Positions 23,081-29,098 of a DNA stretch of 32,851 bases are shown here, piece after piece. Source of the stretch: Bacteroidota bacterium (GTDB lineage: Bacteria; Bacteroidota; Bacteroidia; Chitinophagales; Saprospiraceae). The stretch's first letter is position 1, and each line of letters starts with the position of its first letter. Made by a program: the position numbers and the translations under genes. The DNA is taken from assembly GCA_024642705.1 (NCBI GenBank), contig JAHEAQ010000007.1, forward strand, positions 78,204-111,054, read 5' to 3'. The notes under the pieces are model-generated. The model did no database searches. It had not been told where the DNA came from and worked only from the letters and a program-made list of their open reading frames with translations.

Positions 23081-25606
23081 ATGAAACCTATAATTACTGG
23101 AGTGGCATGTATAATGCTGCTAGCCAACGTATTGTGTATTGCCCAAAATGATACTCCGATGGAGATCTTAATTCATGAAGTAAATGCTAATGAAAGATTT
23201 ATCCAAAAAGATATTTTTGTGCAAGATGAAAGACCTTCAGAATACCTGAATGATTATCTGTCTGATTATTCATTATTAGAATTGAATTTGGATGTACTTA
23301 ATGAGGTATTAACAAATAAATATGAATTTTTAAATATTCATGTCCCTTCACCTCGAGGTGCAAAATTTAACATAAAACTTGTTTCCTTTGATGTTCGTTC
23401 TGAGGGTTTTAAAGTTTTTGAACAATCGAATCGTGTAAAAACAGAAGTTAATTTCCCAGACGCAGTATTCTATAGAGGAATTATTGAAAGAGGAAGTCAC
23501 ACCCAAACAGGGATTAGCATTTTCGAAAATGAATTATTTGGTTTGGCGTCTACACTTGAAGAAGGGAACATTATTATTGCAAAAGATCCAATTAATCCCG
23601 GTAAACAAGGACAGAATTATATCGTTTATTTTGAAAAAGATCTGTTGTTTGATAGGAATTCAAAATGTCTAACAGATGAGTTAAGACAACTAGACCCTGA
23701 TGATTATTCATTGAATAGTACCCGAACTAATGTGTATGAAACTTGTGAAGATGTGGAGATTGAAATAGAAGCTACTCGTAAATTGTATTTGAAAAAAGGC
23801 AGCACAAGTTCAACAGTAAATTATATAAGCGCTTTTTTTAATAATGTGGCTATAATTTACAGGAATGAAGGTATTTATACCAGCTTGAAAAGCATAGTGG
23901 TAAACACAACTGAGGATGGATATACTAATTTAACTACATCACTTGATAAGCTTAATAAATTTGGTGATAATACGCGAAATACATACCAAAATTCAGGTGC
24001 TGAATTAGCCCATTTAGTAGATTATAATACACCAGGACTTGGAGGCGTTGCATGGATAAATGTTTTGTGCACAAACTATATATATTATTCTGCGCAACAA
24101 TATCATTATGGAGCATACGCATATAGTAGTATAGAAGATACTCATCAAGAATTCCCTGACTATTCTTTAACTGTATTTATGTTTTCCCATGAAATGGGAC
24201 ATAATCTTGGTTCTCGGCATACACAATCCTGTTCGTGGGACGGAGGACCAATAGACAATTGTGCTCCTGTGGAGAATGGACCGTGCTCTCCTGGTCCATC
24301 ACCGGTTGGGGGCGGAACGATTATGTCGTATTGTCATTCTACATCATATGGAATTAATTATAGCAAAGGGTTTGGGGTGCAACCCGGCAACAAAATTAGG
24401 TCGTTAATTCAATCTAAAACATGCGTTGAAAATTATATTCCAACTGGAATACTAGGCACAATTCCTTCGCAAACCATTACAGCAAATAGAGAATGCACCG
24501 ATGATGCTGGATGGACAAACTATTATTTTGACAATAATTCAACTTCCGAAAGTGACGATAAGCTGTTATTAATGGTCAAGAAAGAAGGAGAAGATATTGG
24601 AAATCTTGACGATGGGACATTAACAGTAAAGGTAAAAACGTCCTCAAAGGCTGGTAAAGGATCGACCCATATTTCAAATCCTGGCTATTCAGCTAGTCCT
24701 GATTGGCATGTGATGAATAGATGGTTTGAATTGGTGCCAACTACCGAGCCTAATAGTCCAGTAACGGTTAGATTTCCTTATTCCAATGAAGATTTTAATG
24801 ATGTAATGATGAATCAACCAGCAATACATACGCATAAAGATTTAACTTTTTATAAAATCAGCAACCCTGGAAATCCGAACCCAGACGGTGGTCACGTAAA
24901 TGTAACCAATAACCAAATTGTATTTTATGAAAATGGGGACGTTTCTTCATTAACAGAATGGAAATATATAAATATTAGTGGTAGGCATTTTGCCGAGTTT
25001 CAGGTAAATTCATTTTCTGGAGGAGGAGGTGGTTTTAGTGAAAATGGAATGCTCCAACTTCCGGTAGAACTTCATGATTTTACAGTTACAAAAAGAAATG
25101 ATAAAGCTGAAATAAAATGGTCAACTTCAAGCGAAATAAATAACGATTATTTTACAATTGAAAGATCTTCAGATGGTAAAGAATTTGAATCTATCGGCAA
25201 AATAGCTGGTAATGGGACAAGTTTTGATTTAAATGATTATACTTTTGTAGACAGACAACCTTTGGAAGGTAGAAATTATTATAGGCTAAAACAATTGGAT
25301 TTCAACGGAGTTTATGAATATTTAGGAATAAGAACGGTAGAATTTGAAACCTTCGGAAAGATTAACATTTTTCCAAATCCATTGATAAATGAGTTACTTA
25401 CATTAGAATATGAATCCAAGAATAGTGGTAGAATTGAAGTCAGAATCAATGATATTTCGGGGAATTTAGTCCATTTCCAAAATAATGAAATCGATAAAGG
25501 TTCAAATAACTTAAGCATTGATCTTTCAATATTAAATCCAGGAATATATATTGTTCAAATCACTGGAATGGGGACTCCATCATTTCAAAAACTAGTCAAA
25601 CAATAA
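23081..25606 (+). CDS. Secreted zinc metalloprotease (reprolysin-like) with T9SS domain
   Basis: The 841-residue protein has a signal peptide (MKPIITGVACIMLLANVLCIAQ), a propeptide-like region to about 220 and a reprolysin/M12-type zincin domain (about 225-455). The zinc site is HEMGHNLGSRH with His370, Glu371, His374 and His380, and the Met-turn is TIMSYC about 35 residues later. A beta-rich region of unknown type (455-640) follows, then a fibronectin-like domain (about 665-755, EIKWSTSSEINNDYFTIERS) and a T9SS type A sorting domain (INIFPNP onward, 761-841). It should cut proteins outside the cell or on its surface after export through T9SS. It is transcribed alone; whether it acts on the neighbouring giant proteins cannot be told. 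Confidence 0.93.
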   Translation: MKPIITGVACIMLLANVLCIAQNDTPMEILIHEVNANERFIQKDIFVQDERPSEYLNDYLSDYSLLELNLDVLNEVLTNKYEFLNIHVPSPRGAKFNIKLVSFDVRSEGFKVFEQSNRVKTEVNFPDAVFYRGIIERGSHTQTGISIFENELFGLASTLEEGNIIIAKDPINPGKQGQNYIVYFEKDLLFDRNSKCLTDELRQLDPDDYSLNSTRTNVYETCEDVEIEIEATRKLYLKKGSTSSTVNYISAFFNNVAIIYRNEGIYTSLKSIVVNTTEDGYTNLTTSLDKLNKFGDNTRNTYQNSGAELAHLVDYNTPGLGGVAWINVLCTNYIYYSAQQYHYGAYAYSSIEDTHQEFPDYSLTVFMFSHEMGHNLGSRHTQSCSWDGGPIDNCAPVENGPCSPGPSPVGGGTIMSYCHSTSYGINYSKGFGVQPGNKIRSLIQSKTCVENYIPTGILGTIPSQTITANRECTDDAGWTNYYFDNNSTSESDDKLLLMVKKEGEDIGNLDDGTLTVKVKTSSKAGKGSTHISNPGYSASPDWHVMNRWFELVPTTEPNSPVTVRFPYSNEDFNDVMMNQPAIHTHKDLTFYKISNPGNPNPDGGHVNVTNNQIVFYENGDVSSLTEWKYINISGRHFAEFQVNSFSGGGGGFSENGMLQLPVELHDFTVTKRNDKAEIKWSTSSEINNDYFTIERSSDGKEFESIGKIAGNGTSFDLNDYTFVDRQPLEGRNYYRLKQLDFNGVYEYLGIRTVEFETFGKINIFPNPLINELLTLEYESKNSGRIEVRINDISGNLVHFQNNEIDKGSNNLSIDLSILNPGIYIVQITGMGTPSFQKLVKQ

Positions 25607-26187
25607 ATGAATCATCTGAAATATTGAACTTTTTAATTTAAAATATCAAGAGCATAGTGATTGAAAATGTCCAGTTTTTCAAATATTAGTTAGGTATCGT
25701 TTATTGGTTTAATTTTTCTTGATGATAGAATATTCTTGGTATCCAAATGAAAAAAATTCGAAGTTAATTGGAAAGGTAATTCTTCGTTTTCTTTTAGGCA
25801 ACAATTTCAGCGATTCAACCTTTTTAATGGTATAAATGAATTCCTAAAAAACAGCAGGATGATTTTTTATTTTCTTAAAAAAGCCCAAAGACATTCAACC
25901 ATTCTTTGTTAGAGAAATGATTAATTGATCAATTTGGAATCCAACCATCCATTTTCAAAATAGTAAAAATCGAATAGGTATTATCGTTGTTAAACTTTAG
26001 CTAAAAGTTGGGCAAATATTTAATTTATAGGATTTTTTATGGTCTACAAACTTCAAAATTTAGAGCTTTATATTCCTGCTATTCTTTCATTCAAATGTTA
26101 AAGTTTGAAAATAAATTGAATTTATAAGGACAAAAGCGCTGTTTTTCACACTAATGCTATATACGAGAATATTAAAACGGAATTAGT
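25607..26187. other. 581-base gene-free spacer before the RAYT-like gene
   Basis: All frames are broken and no RNA gene, clear terminator or repeat of the 26994/32031 family is recognised. A minor palindrome AACTTTAGCTAAAAGTT occurs near 25992. I see nothing else. Confidence 0.5.
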
Positions 26188-26886
26188 ATGATAGCAAAAC
26201 ACATTTTTGAGGAAGGCATTTATTTGCTTAGCAACACTGGAGTTGCCAGAAATCCAATATTTAGAAATAAAGATAATTATGAACGATTTCGAGAAAAGAC
26301 ACTGGTTTATTTGGAGCCGCTATGTGAAATTTTAGCATTTGCTTTTCATGATAATCAATGGGAATTGGTGGTCAAGATCAAATCTAGGAGTGAATTTGAA
26401 GCTTTTTATAAGAAGAAACATCAGCTAGACTTTATAGAAAATTTTTTGATTCCAGAATCAGCTTTTATTTTCAGTCAAGAAATGGCCAATTTGCAATCTG
26501 GATTTGTCAAACATTTTAATTGGTTAAACAACAGGGTAGGTGCTTTATTTTATAGACGATATCAAAAAGAACTCATAGAATCTGAGGGTGAATTAATTAT
26601 TGTCATAAATAGATTGAACCATTTAATGGCTCGGAATCCACATAAAGGAGAATGGGCGATAAAGAAAATGGAGAGGCTGAAAAAAGTGGAAAGGAGGTCG
26701 AGTGAGGAGAAATATAGAATAAAAAAATTGAGCATAACTGAAGTAATTTGCAACCAATTATGCATTGAAAAATACGACCTTGAAGCTTACTTTAAAAATA
26801 TTCCTGAATTAAAGATTGAGAATCCATTTTTGAGATATTTAAGGACCCTCAACAAGATTTTTGCATTTTTCGAGACTACAATTTAA
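26188..26886 (+). CDS. RAYT/IS200-like (Y1) protein with degenerate catalytic motifs
   Basis: The 232-residue protein follows the plan of REP-associated tyrosine transposases. IYLLSNTGVARNPIFRNKDNYERF is given here by its marks: SNTGVARNPIFRN matches the usual RGnnrqpIFrd start. ILAFAFHDNQWELVVK aligns with the IxAYCLMPNHxHLLVR segment, SGFVKHFNWLNNRVGALFYR with the GYxxYFNRRxGRxGxLFQ segment, and RLNHLMARNP with the YIHxNP segment. The HUH histidines are replaced by Gln57 and Glu59, and the expected nucleophilic tyrosine aligns with Phe106. The frame is intact, so this looks like a domesticated DNA-binding relative rather than debris. A 240-bp palindromic element begins 108 bases after its stop. 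The alignment was done by eye; an unrelated small protein is possible but less likely. Confidence 0.6.
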   Translation: MIAKHIFEEGIYLLSNTGVARNPIFRNKDNYERFREKTLVYLEPLCEILAFAFHDNQWELVVKIKSRSEFEAFYKKKHQLDFIENFLIPESAFIFSQEMANLQSGFVKHFNWLNNRVGALFYRRYQKELIESEGELIIVINRLNHLMARNPHKGEWAIKKMERLKKVERRSSEEKYRIKKLSITEVICNQLCIEKYDLEAYFKNIPELKIENPFLRYLRTLNKIFAFFETTI

Positions 26887-26925
26887 CTATTTACTCATTT
26901 TGGAATTGTACCTTTTCTTTTCTCC

Positions 26926-26944
26926 ATCCAAATTCACTTTGGAT
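26926..26944. repeat. Short hairpin downstream of the RAYT-like gene
   Basis: ATCCAAA and TTTGGAT form a perfect 7-bp stem with the loop TTCAC, 40 bases after the stop. No T-run follows. It may be a weak terminator or part of the palindromic flank of the gene. Confidence 0.4.
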
Positions 26945-26993
26945 CCTGCAACTTCTATGCATTTCGCCTTCGTTACCTGGATAAATTTGATTT

Positions 26994-27233
26994 AACCCGC
27001 ATTATGCATTAAACATTCTATTCCTACTGGAAATGACTGCAAAATATGCCGCTTCACTAAGTTTTGGTCATGCACGATAGTGGTAACTATGATTTAGTCA
27101 GGCCATCCCTTCCGACAGATTTTCTTTCGGTTCTCTCCCTATTTTAATTTCATTAAAATTGCTTTGCATCGTTCGTTCATTTTTTATGGTCATTTCAGGT
27201 CTCATTGCGAAGCCCCAATGCATATTGCGGGTT
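26994..27233. mobile_element. 240-bp MITE/REP-like element, copy A
   Basis: The ends are 17-base terminal inverted repeats, AACCCGCATTATGCATT (26994-27010) and AATGCATATTGCGGGTT (27217-27233), matching at 16 of 17 positions. Inside lies a central hairpin ACGATAGT-GGTA-ACTATGAT (27074-27093), preceded eight bases earlier by AAGTTTT. The last 40 bases match copy B (32165-32204) at about 34 positions. It encodes no protein. It sits immediately downstream of the RAYT-like gene, as REP repeats do in RAYT systems. No target-site duplication is evident. Confidence 0.6.
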
Positions 27234-27371: not shown

Positions 27372-27402
27372 AAGAGTCTTGATTTATCAAGGCTCTTTTT
27401 TT
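27372..27402. terminator. Bidirectional terminator at the end of the symporter gene
   Basis: AAGAGTCTTGA and TCAAGGCTCTT form an 11-bp stem (one T-G pair) with loop TTTA. T7 follows on plus and TTTTATT on minus. On minus it lies at the symporter stop (27401-27403) and probably ends that operon. Confidence 0.75.
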
Positions 27403-29098
27403 ATTCATCAGATTTAGCTACTTGTTTGATTAAAAGCTGAGCAATAATTGAGATGATAATAACTGAAAAACAACCCACTACATTAAACCACATGTAGGAA
27501 TCTGAAAATTGGGTAAATATCAAAACCAAAATTTGAGCTCCAACCGCACCAATAAATACAGCATGAGAACCCACTTTTTTAATATAAAACGCCACAAGGA
27601 AAATTCCTAAAATCGTTCCATAAAAAACCGACCCTATATAGTTGACCAACTGAATTAAATTATCGAACAGCGAAGCCGTAGTTGCTACAAAAATAGCTAT
27701 AATACCCCACGCCAATGTGAATAACTTGCTGGCGTTAAGATATTCTTTCTCTGATAATTCTTTTTTTGTATTTCGTTTGTACAAATCAACAACTGTTGTT
27801 GCTCCTAATGCATTAATTTCAGCAGCAGTCGATGACATCGCCGCAGAAAGTATTACTGCCAACAAAAGACCAATTAGTCCCCTTGGTAGATATTTTAAGA
27901 TAAAACTTAAGAACACATAATCCCGATCATTTGATTCGATTTCCAAGCCTGAATTATCCATCAATTTCCTGCCCTCTGATCTCAATGCATTTAACTCTCC
28001 TTCTTTGCTGATCAATAATTCTTTTACATTTTCTAAAGCAGCATTATCGTTAGCTTTCTTATGAACCAAAAATTCACTAGAAAGTGCTGTTTTTTCACTT
28101 TGGAGCAATTGATATTGTTGCTCCAAATTAGCATACTCATCGGCATATTTACTTTCTTTAATGACCTTTTCAGCTTGAGGATTAAAATTCAATGGTTTTT
28201 CCTGAAATTGAAAAAATACAAAAACCATTATTCCTACAACTAAAATGAAAAATTGCAATGGTAATTTGAAAAGACCATTAAACAATAAACCAAGCCTACT
28301 TTCACGTATTGATCTTCCACTTAAGTATCTCTGCACTTGTGATTGATCTGTACCAAAATAAGCTAGCGCTATAAAGAATCCTCCTGTTATTCCTGACCAG
28401 AAAGTATATCGTTCCTTGAAATCAATTGAAAAATCTATAGCATTTGTTTTTCCAGAAGCTCCAGCCAAACTCATTGCAGTTGTAAAATTCATATCCTCAG
28501 GCAATAGCCTTAAAATAATGAAAAATGCAATGATCATTCCCGATAAAATAATAACCATTTGTTGTTTTTGGGTAACTGCGACAGCCTTTGTACCTCCTGT
28601 TACAGTATAAACAATTACCAAAATCCCAATTATAATACAAGTTAATTTTAGATTCCATCCCAATAAAACAGAAAATATTATAGCTGGAGCATAAATCGTA
28701 ATTCCAGCGGCAAGACCCCTTTGGATAAGAAACAACAATGCTGCAAAGGTTCTAGTTTTTAAATCAAAACGTTTTTCTAAATATTCATACGCAGTAAATA
28801 CTTTTAATCGATAAAAAATTGGAACAAACGTTACACATAACACAACCATTGCCAATGGAAGTCCAAAATAAAATTGAACAAATCCTAATCCTTTATCAAA
28901 TGCTTGGCCTGGAGTAGATAAGAAGGTTATTGCACTGGCTTGAGTTGCCATTACTGAAAGTCCAATAGTCCACCATTTGGAATCGCTTCCTCCCTTTAAA
29001 TAAGAATCTGTAGTATTCTCTTTTCTGGTTTTATATAAACCATAAAGGATGATAAACATCAACGTTCCAATAAGTATACTCCAATCTAAATAACTCAT
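27401..29098 (-). CDS. Sodium:solute symporter (SSS/SLC5 family)
   Basis: The 565-residue inner-membrane protein has the 13-helix layout of SSS transporters, which couple sodium entry to uptake of sugars, amino acids, sialic acid or similar solutes. Family marks include QASAITFLSTPGQAF (about residues 53-67), YFGTDQSQVQRYLSGRS (247-263) and the sodium-site stretch SAAMSSTAAEINALG (418-432). Between two helices (about 299-392) lies a hydrophilic, coiled-coil-like insert rich in Glu, Lys and Gln, seen in Bacteroidota members. It follows a 40-residue membrane peptide by 6 bases and the PIG-L deacetylase just before that, so it probably imports a product of the deacetylase. The actual solute is unknown. 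Confidence 0.92.
   Translation of the reverse strand: MSYLDWSILIGTLMFIILYGLYKTRKENTTDSYLKGGSDSKWWTIGLSVMATQASAITFLSTPGQAFDKGLGFVQFYFGLPLAMVVLCVTFVPIFYRLKVFTAYEYLEKRFDLKTRTFAALLFLIQRGLAAGITIYAPAIIFSVLLGWNLKLTCIIIGILVIVYTVTGGTKAVAVTQKQQMVIILSGMIIAFFIILRLLPEDMNFTTAMSLAGASGKTNAIDFSIDFKERYTFWSGITGGFFIALAYFGTDQSQVQRYLSGRSIRESRLGLLFNGLFKLPLQFFILVVGIMVFVFFQFQEKPLNFNPQAEKVIKESKYADEYANLEQQYQLLQSEKTALSSEFLVHKKANDNAALENVKELLISKEGELNALRSEGRKLMDNSGLEIESNDRDYVFLSFILKYLPRGLIGLLLAVILSAAMSSTAAEINALGATTVVDLYKRNTKKELSEKEYLNASKLFTLAWGIIAIFVATTASLFDNLIQLVNYIGSVFYGTILGIFLVAFYIKKVGSHAVFIGAVGAQILVLIFTQFSDSYMWFNVVGCFSVIIISIIAQLLIKQVAKSDE

Follow-up and report, generated by a model that had tools for sequence, protein, structure and literature searches.

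The window analyzed here, a stretch of 32,851 nucleotides, carries on its forward strand a 232-codon open reading frame that, as stated in the initial annotation, runs from 26188 to 26886 without interruption. The gene stands alone between a metalloprotease-type gene upstream (end at 25606) and a convergent symporter-type gene downstream (27401–29098), both named by eye. The features of the locus, with the evidence for each, are as follows.

26092–26961, + strand: dispersed unit, approximate ends (pairwise homology with three sister A1 copies)
26104–26115, + strand: A-rich block TTTGAAAATAAA of a shared promoter-like element, window copy (upstream comparison)
26126–26135, + strand: −35-like block AAGGACAAAA, window copy, diverged from the commonest form in the source genome, GGTAACGAAA (upstream comparison)
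26148–26156, + strand: −10-like block ACACTAATG, window copy, ~22 bp from the −35-like block (upstream comparison)
26188–26886, + strand: HUH-less RAYT-like gene, subfamily A1 copy, 232 amino acids (open reading frame and hhalign homology to HUH-bearing class 2 TnpA)
26356–26364, + strand: codons 57 to 59 (Gln-Trp-Glu), in the HUH columns (alignments)
26503–26505, + strand: codon 106 (Phe), initially taken for the Tyr site, really in the column of a SYAKxxN helix (hhalign and column counts)
26611–26613, + strand: codon 142 (Arg), in the column of the nucleophilic Tyr (hhalign and column counts)
27154–27179, + strand: REP-like repeat, 3′ part (matched 22 times in the source genome at up to two mismatches)

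Searches of Pfam, NCBIfam, PHROGs, and PADLOC with the window protein gave nothing meaningful. The Pfam Y1_Tnp model matched neither this protein nor any of the copies scanned (0 of 21, and 0 of 23 in another scan). The single-sequence AlphaFold model had a mean pLDDT of 38, below usable confidence. When a profile of the HUH-less family was searched against PDB sequences, no convincing match was obtained; the best row (7op4, E = 0.0034) is a repeat protein of which no stretch passes by itself. A wider contig scan, in which records close to the window were possibly excluded, returned a single distant HUH-bearing locus. An HUH-bearing RAYT in a record titled Woesebacteria MAG (L114, 3001–3417) has a VARNPIF motif in common with the HUH-less family and aligns poorly with the window protein.

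The relationship of the gene was assessed by comparing profiles. Using hhalign, a profile of 21 copies from the source genome was matched to a profile of 29 HUH-bearing relatives with a probability of 99.8 (E = 1.6e-27) over 140 columns. An HUH-less profile built from other genomes matched the same HUH-bearing profile at E = 1.1e-12 and the source-genome profile at E = 1.8e-19. Of the HUH-bearing relatives, only 14 of the 29 match Y1_Tnp at E = 0.01 or better; their profile reached the TnpA_REP structure 4er8 (E = 1.8e-5, 46 positions). By these profile comparisons, homology of the window gene to REP-associated (class 2 TnpA_Y1/RAYT) transposases can be regarded as secure. Among the subclasses of class 2 TnpA_Y1, 2.6 is described as the one dominated by Bacteroidetes.

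The initial annotation had placed Gln57 and Glu59 where the two HUH histidines are expected, and the alignments bear this out: both columns hold His in 41 of 41 HUH-bearing rows, compared to 0 of 50 (column 57) and 2 of 50 (column 59) rows of the HUH-less family. Its assignment of the nucleophile to Phe106 proved wrong. The class 2 nucleophile is reported to be the Tyr of a Y-x-x-NP motif (PMC6006769), which hhalign aligned with Arg142, and column 142 contains Tyr in 41 of 41 HUH-bearing rows versus 0 of 50 HUH-less rows. Since the motif aligns there and no HUH-less row has retained its Tyr, the nucleophile is lost as well, at the Arg142 column. Position 106 was rejected as a nucleophile site: it belongs to a conserved S-Y-A-K-x-x-N helix, and its column, with Tyr in 39 of 41 HUH-bearing rows, is still Tyr in 29 of 50 HUH-less rows. 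Conservation of Gln, Glu, and Phe among relatives was not found either, as QxE, QxQ, ExQ, GxA, GxQ, and other combinations occur; what is constant across the HUH-less family is the absence of HUH and nucleophile, whatever replaces them. Judged from these columns, nothing of the active site remains, neither HUH nor the nucleophilic Tyr, and the protein is predicted to be catalytically dead.

The window gene is not the single domesticated gene that had been proposed but belongs to a large intragenomic family. The source genome (G000; 5.7 Mb in 194 contigs) contains 40 family matches at E = 0.1, 21 of which are diverged copies with open frames. The 20 open-frame copies other than the window gene are 28 to 80% identical to the window protein; in one of them, L005, the contig stops shortly before the gene does. 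Everything else among the 40 matches is cut by a contig end, interrupted by a repeat, or decayed to a fragment. Neither HUH column contains His in any of the 21 rows from this genome that entered the tree, and two contig-cut pieces (L053 and L056) read NQFQ. A profile of HUH-bearing relatives found 26 matches in the source genome, all of them, by eye, at places of the 40-match list, and PF01797 found none at E = 0.01; hence, no HUH-bearing member was seen in this genome at E = 0.001.

Expansions of HUH-less members were also detected in other genera of the same taxonomic family, with 25 matches in G168, 22 in G233, and 9 in G006. Gly replaces the first His in 22 of 22 matches in G233 and in all 21 matches in G168 that reach the column (the other 4 of 25 are pieces falling short of it), while the second position is His in 1 of 22 and 2 of 21, respectively. 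Two genomes of the same genus as the source, G001 and G002, have members with both HUH and Tyr, at two and six loci, respectively, counts that leave out one further match in each; the HUH-less profile found no HUH-less match in either genome. G006 has one intact HUH-bearing gene beside its 9 HUH-less copies. At a threshold of E = 1e-14, the HUH-less profile matched 7 of 398 sampled genomes of the taxonomic family, representing 4 of 112 genera. A maximum-likelihood tree of 41 HUH-bearing and 50 HUH-less rows was built with the three active-site columns removed. In this unrooted tree, all 41 HUH-bearing rows lie on one side of a single branch (support 99/96). Copies mostly cluster by genome: those of the source genome form one group at 59/73, the G006 and G168 groups are well supported, and the G233 group has one outlier. 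The topology is consistent with a single loss of the active site and, after it, separate expansions or concerted evolution; being unrooted, the tree does not prove that the loss was single.

To estimate selection, dN/dS was calculated by the Nei-Gojobori method for pairs within subfamilies. Values were 0.111 to 0.171 in subfamily A1 (10 pairs), 0.145 to 0.238 in A2 (6 pairs), and 0.120 to 0.187 in B (10 pairs). In subfamily C, 6 of 10 pairs gave 0.095 to 0.174 and 4 were saturated; among G006 copies, of which 5 of 9 were used, 3 of 10 pairs gave 0.056 to 0.088 and 7 were saturated. A ratio well below 1 was thus observed for all 26 A1, A2, and B pairs (0.11 to 0.24), and the coding sequences indicate that copies of widely differing age are kept as proteins. 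Taken with the hhalign and column results, this upholds the proposal of a non-cleaving RAYT/Y1-derived protein under purifying selection; the position given for its Tyr does not stand.

Comparison of upstream regions revealed an element consisting of an A-rich block, GGTAAC (G000) or GGAAC (G168 and G233), a spacer of 16 or 17 nt, and ACACTAAT. The distance from the first G to ACACT is fixed at ~22 bp; the distance to the ATG is variable. ACACTAA together with a −35-like block was present in 24 of the 25 source-genome copies examined, the 25th being cut by its contig end, and in 10 of 10 copies examined in each of G168 and G233. The −35-like block reads GGGTAC or AAGGAC in A1 copies of the source genome, GTGTCAC in 3 of the 10 G168 copies, and GGAAT or AGAAC in 2 of the 10 G233 copies. 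G006 has the element in another form, GGnnAT...ACACTTA, in 8 of 9 copies, and the ninth reads ACACTTC. The paired motif was found upstream of none of 44 HUH-bearing relatives, two of which have a lone ACACTAA.

We then counted occurrences of the element genome-wide. Exact GGTAAC-N16-ACACTAAT occurs at 19 sites in the source genome, compared to 0.07 expected from base composition. Fifteen of these sites are at family genes, one is in a contig-cut family-type leader, and the three found elsewhere precede only genes whose products were identified by Pfam as ComM/YifB (Mg_chelatase, ChlI), RadC, and ComEC (Competence). Among the 21 open-frame copies, 12 have the exact motif upstream; the window copy lacks it. 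With up to one mismatch, 21 sites were found versus 6 for a reversed-pattern control; of the two additional sites, one is at a family copy and one, on contig C85, is unexplained. This latter site (L165, G000:C85:499-528) lies ~630 bp before an open reading frame that resembles, by eye, an ECF sigma factor gene, possibly by chance.

The GGAAC form with up to one mismatch occurs 32 times in G168 and 26 times in G233, while the reversed control gave 0 and 1 sites, respectively. Sites were assigned from the retrieved sequence or from their location next to a family match, which placed 31 of 32 and 26 of 26; 27 in G168 and 22 in G233 fall at family genes or contig-cut family-type leaders. Four sites in each genome are outside the family; they precede genes for ComM, RadC, ComEC, and DUF2851 in G168 and for ComEC, RadC, SSB, and DUF2851 in G233. 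In the sister species G002, where the search gave no HUH-less member, radC is likewise preceded by the element. Across G000, G002, G168, and G233, Pfam confirmed ten proteins encoded under the element (2 ComM, 3 RadC, 3 ComEC, 1 SSB, and 1 DUF2851); L171 and L186 are called DUF2851 and RadC, respectively, from similarity only. A DUF2851 gene lies under the competence-type promoter in G168, G233, and G068 (L171, L183, and L196; Pfam assignment for L183 only), which suggests a competence role for the DUF2851 family.

A broader pattern, AACNTTTT-N9/13-ACACTAA, had five matches in seven genomes. Four are in the source genome, before comM, radC, comEC, and at an unexplained position with no long frame close by (C60:1586), and one is before radC in G002; G001, G003, G006, G168, and G233 had none. 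By itself, this pattern is weak evidence, since the reversed control gave as many matches or more in several genomes. Loci of genus g66 additionally show a palindrome (type ATATTAA-N8-TTAATAT), which, counted by eye, forms the best dyad between −121 and −123 relative to ACACT at 20 of 29 family loci in G168 and 4 of 13 family loci in G233. It does so also at 4 of the 8 com-type genes (a comM, two comEC, and a radC); in G000 and G006, it has no comparable fixed position. Matches to a strict version of the palindrome (6 of 30 family loci in G168, 1 of 13 in G233, and 1 of 8 com-type loci) are always 99 to 101 bp before the −35-like block.

A GGAAC −35 box is a hallmark of promoters recognized by ECF sigma factors. 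The element has such a GGAAC-type −35, with variants GGTAAC, AAGGAC, and GTGTCAC, and a fixed spacer. Of the nonfamily genes preceded by it, radC, ssbB, and comEC are reported in the pneumococcal competence regulon (PMC6560143), and Haemophilus parasuis CRP-S sites are reported at radC, comM, and ssb (PMC5809987). Since the element also stands before comEC, comM, radC, and ssb, known genes of competence regulons, it is read here as the promoter of a natural-competence regulon recognized by a putative alternative, ECF-like sigma factor. On the evidence of the shared upstream sequences, regulation common to the family and to comEC, comM, radC, and ssb in G000, G168, and G233 is well supported.

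To see what is dispersed with the gene, we determined the limits of homology between copies. The window unit, compared with three A1 sisters, begins 57 to 74 bp before ACACT and ends 73 to 77 bp after the stop codon. Homology extends from 54 to 80 bp before ACACT to 73 to 104 bp after the stop in A1 (6 pairs), from 59 to 112 bp before to 60 to 169 bp after in B (10 pairs), and from 54 to 184 bp before to 223 to 312 bp after in A2 (15 pairs). Four A2 pairs with 84.7 to 88.2% identity have sharp limits, 54 to 56 bp before ACACT and 236 to 240 bp after the stop, and three of them include copy L009; similarity among L007, L008, and L010 reaches further upstream, to −172 to −184, and for the L007-L008 pair also to 312 bp after the stop. 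By these comparisons, the spreading unit is the promoter plus the gene, ~0.9 to 1.2 kb long, with ends that are not uniform. One repeat-interrupted copy is present in two places with 80 to 85% identity. In L009 itself, an A2 copy (705–1406) directly follows the truncated 5′ end of another A2 copy (~440–500), as if it had inserted beside a remnant. In G233, a truncated and a full family copy lie in tandem, each with its own promoter (L184, G233:C79).

Of 17 copies examined in G168, 15 are truncated by the end of their contig no more than 376 bp from the motif. All 55 pairs among 11 cut copies are 91 to 100% identical over 62 to 300 nt of the 5′ end, which suggests recent multiplication in this genome. 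The leaders of the same copies (−60 to −360) agree only at 0.60 to 0.74, but their coding parts differ by 0.10 to 0.21 at synonymous sites (6 pairs); this contrast between leader and coding part suggests that coding tracts in G168 may have been homogenized by recombination.

A REP-like repeat of ~80 nt (DNA fold z-score of −3.46 for the one copy folded) lies ~270 bp downstream of the stop of the window gene (27154–27179) and at five other copies (L010, L061, L062, L047, and L052); none was seen bracketing genes. Matches of its CAACATTCGCT subtype are all at family copies (5 of 5; contigs C1, C9, C109, C120, and C154), and a sixth REP-like match lies in a decayed copy (C115). Matches of the non-CAACATTCGCT subtype are scattered, with one near the window gene. 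By eye, the sequence at the point of insertion is GGAGTTG in L010 and GGATTTG in L062. For subclass 2.4, REPs inserted into tnpA_REP genes have been reported (PMC6006769).

The explanation that we favor, with a probability of roughly 0.6, is that these genes are catalytically dead RAYT descendants which have become part of the natural-competence regulon, bind incoming single-stranded DNA (ssDNA), and have multiplied in several lineages. A clade of RAYTs (class 2 TnpA_Y1) would have lost HUH and the nucleophilic Tyr, come under the natural-competence promoter, and multiplied in several lineages of one bacterial family. Its copies would be transcribed on entry into competence. Their protein products, whose ancestral fold holds ssDNA hairpins, may bind without cutting the ssDNA that enters through ComEC. 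The bound ssDNA could then be protected, sorted, or partly blocked alongside SSB. Many diverged copies may provide a repertoire with different DNA preferences or act through dosage. Several observations count against this explanation. The single-sequence model has low confidence, and the family profile has no convincing PDB match; the −35-like block of the window copy, AAGGACAAAA, is off consensus, with 12 of the 21 open-frame copies carrying the exact motif; the element of G006 has another form; and 4 of the 8 com-type genes, as well as G000 and G006, lack the upstream palindrome. It is somewhat speculative, and rather unlikely, that competence in these bacteria is accompanied by a diversifying repertoire of dead RAYTs, each with its own ssDNA hairpin or motif, which screens transforming DNA, for instance by trapping ssDNA transposons, and whose genes spread during transformation.

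The dispersal data can also be explained by a selfish or hitchhiking unit of promoter and gene that is moved in trans or by illegitimate recombination in transformation, the competence promoter serving the spread of the unit itself and not the host. We consider this possible but improbable. Homology between dispersed copies that is limited to the promoter, the gene, and short flanks would be expected of such a unit, as would the lineage-specific expansions on the tree, the recent-looking amplification in G168, and the interrupted copy found in two places. However, the boundaries vary, with L009 contributing to three of the four sharp A2 pairs and L007, L008, and L010 extending further; frames remain open, and dN/dS is far below 1, even in old copies whose synonymous sites are nearly saturated; no HUH-bearing member or PF01797 match that could act as the mover is found in the source genome at the above thresholds; and the plasmid and phage collections searched for the family contained no match. 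A special case of the favored explanation, in which the dead copies act as guards or dominant negatives that bind the hairpins of incoming ssDNA transposons (IS200/IS605 and RAYT/REP) and block their establishment, seems to us quite unlikely. All matches read at the HUH columns in G000, G168, and G233 are HUH-less, while the sisters G001 and G002 have HUH-bearing members; the family has diversified, and competence is the time when such elements enter as ssDNA. Yet few genomes are concerned and PADLOC finds nothing, and the evidence is thin because G006 keeps an HUH-bearing gene together with its 9 HUH-less copies.

Two further explanations concern the nature of the element and of the gene. Given that RAYTs recognize sites beside their own genes and that the element precedes nearly all family copies, it might be the binding site of the protein, or a transposon end, rather than a promoter. 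This is very unlikely: the same element with the same spacing precedes comEC, comM, radC, ssb, and DUF2851 genes, including radC of G002, and its position relative to the ATG varies while the internal spacing of ~22 bp is kept. A transposon end was rejected because the com genes carry the same element. Finally, some copies are fragments or repeat-interrupted, as would be the case if a transposase gene were decaying into a pseudogene, but there are 21 open-frame copies with dN/dS of 0.1 to 0.24, a conserved promoter, and an identical clade-wide loss of the active site. The open frames and dN/dS rule out a pseudogene as the general description, and we give decay almost no credence.

If the favored explanation is true, a transposase lineage has been made into a multigene part of natural transformation. 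The finding also provides a signature by which a competence regulon and its promoter can be recognized in a group for which the literature searched contained no competence promoter motif, and it opens to test the factor that runs competence there, the targets of the dead RAYTs, and their multiplication without a visible transposase of their own. By title and abstract, no publication describing the combination found here was identified, subscription papers being mostly outside the search.

With class 2 TnpA_Y1/TnpA_REP proteins, the HUH-less family shares a homologous N-terminal domain of ~140 residues. It differs from them in having neither HUH nor the Tyr of Y-x-x-NP, in its C-terminal part, in its competence-type promoter, and in its high copy number: TnpA_REP genes have a low copy number per genome, compared to 40 matches in G000, 25 in G168, 22 in G233, and 9 in G006. 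The active HUH-containing Y1 transposase that defines IS200/IS605 elements is likewise absent from the family. As for the promoter, the pneumococcal ComX set and the H. parasuis CRP-S sites are likewise described as one motif before radC, ssb, comEC, or comM (PMC6560143 and PMC5809987). The element found here, with its ECF-like GGAAC/ACACTAAT structure and, in g66, an upstream palindrome, differs from both in sequence. A further counterpart by description is the ComX-regulated pneumococcal pair SPV_2082 and SPV_2340, which is also of transposase type, repeated, and competence-controlled; these are reported as few, and as pseudogenes of a gene annotated as nuclease or transposase (PMC6560143). 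A role on incoming ssDNA, as proposed here, would be shared with the competence SSB (SsbB) and DprA, which belong to other protein families.
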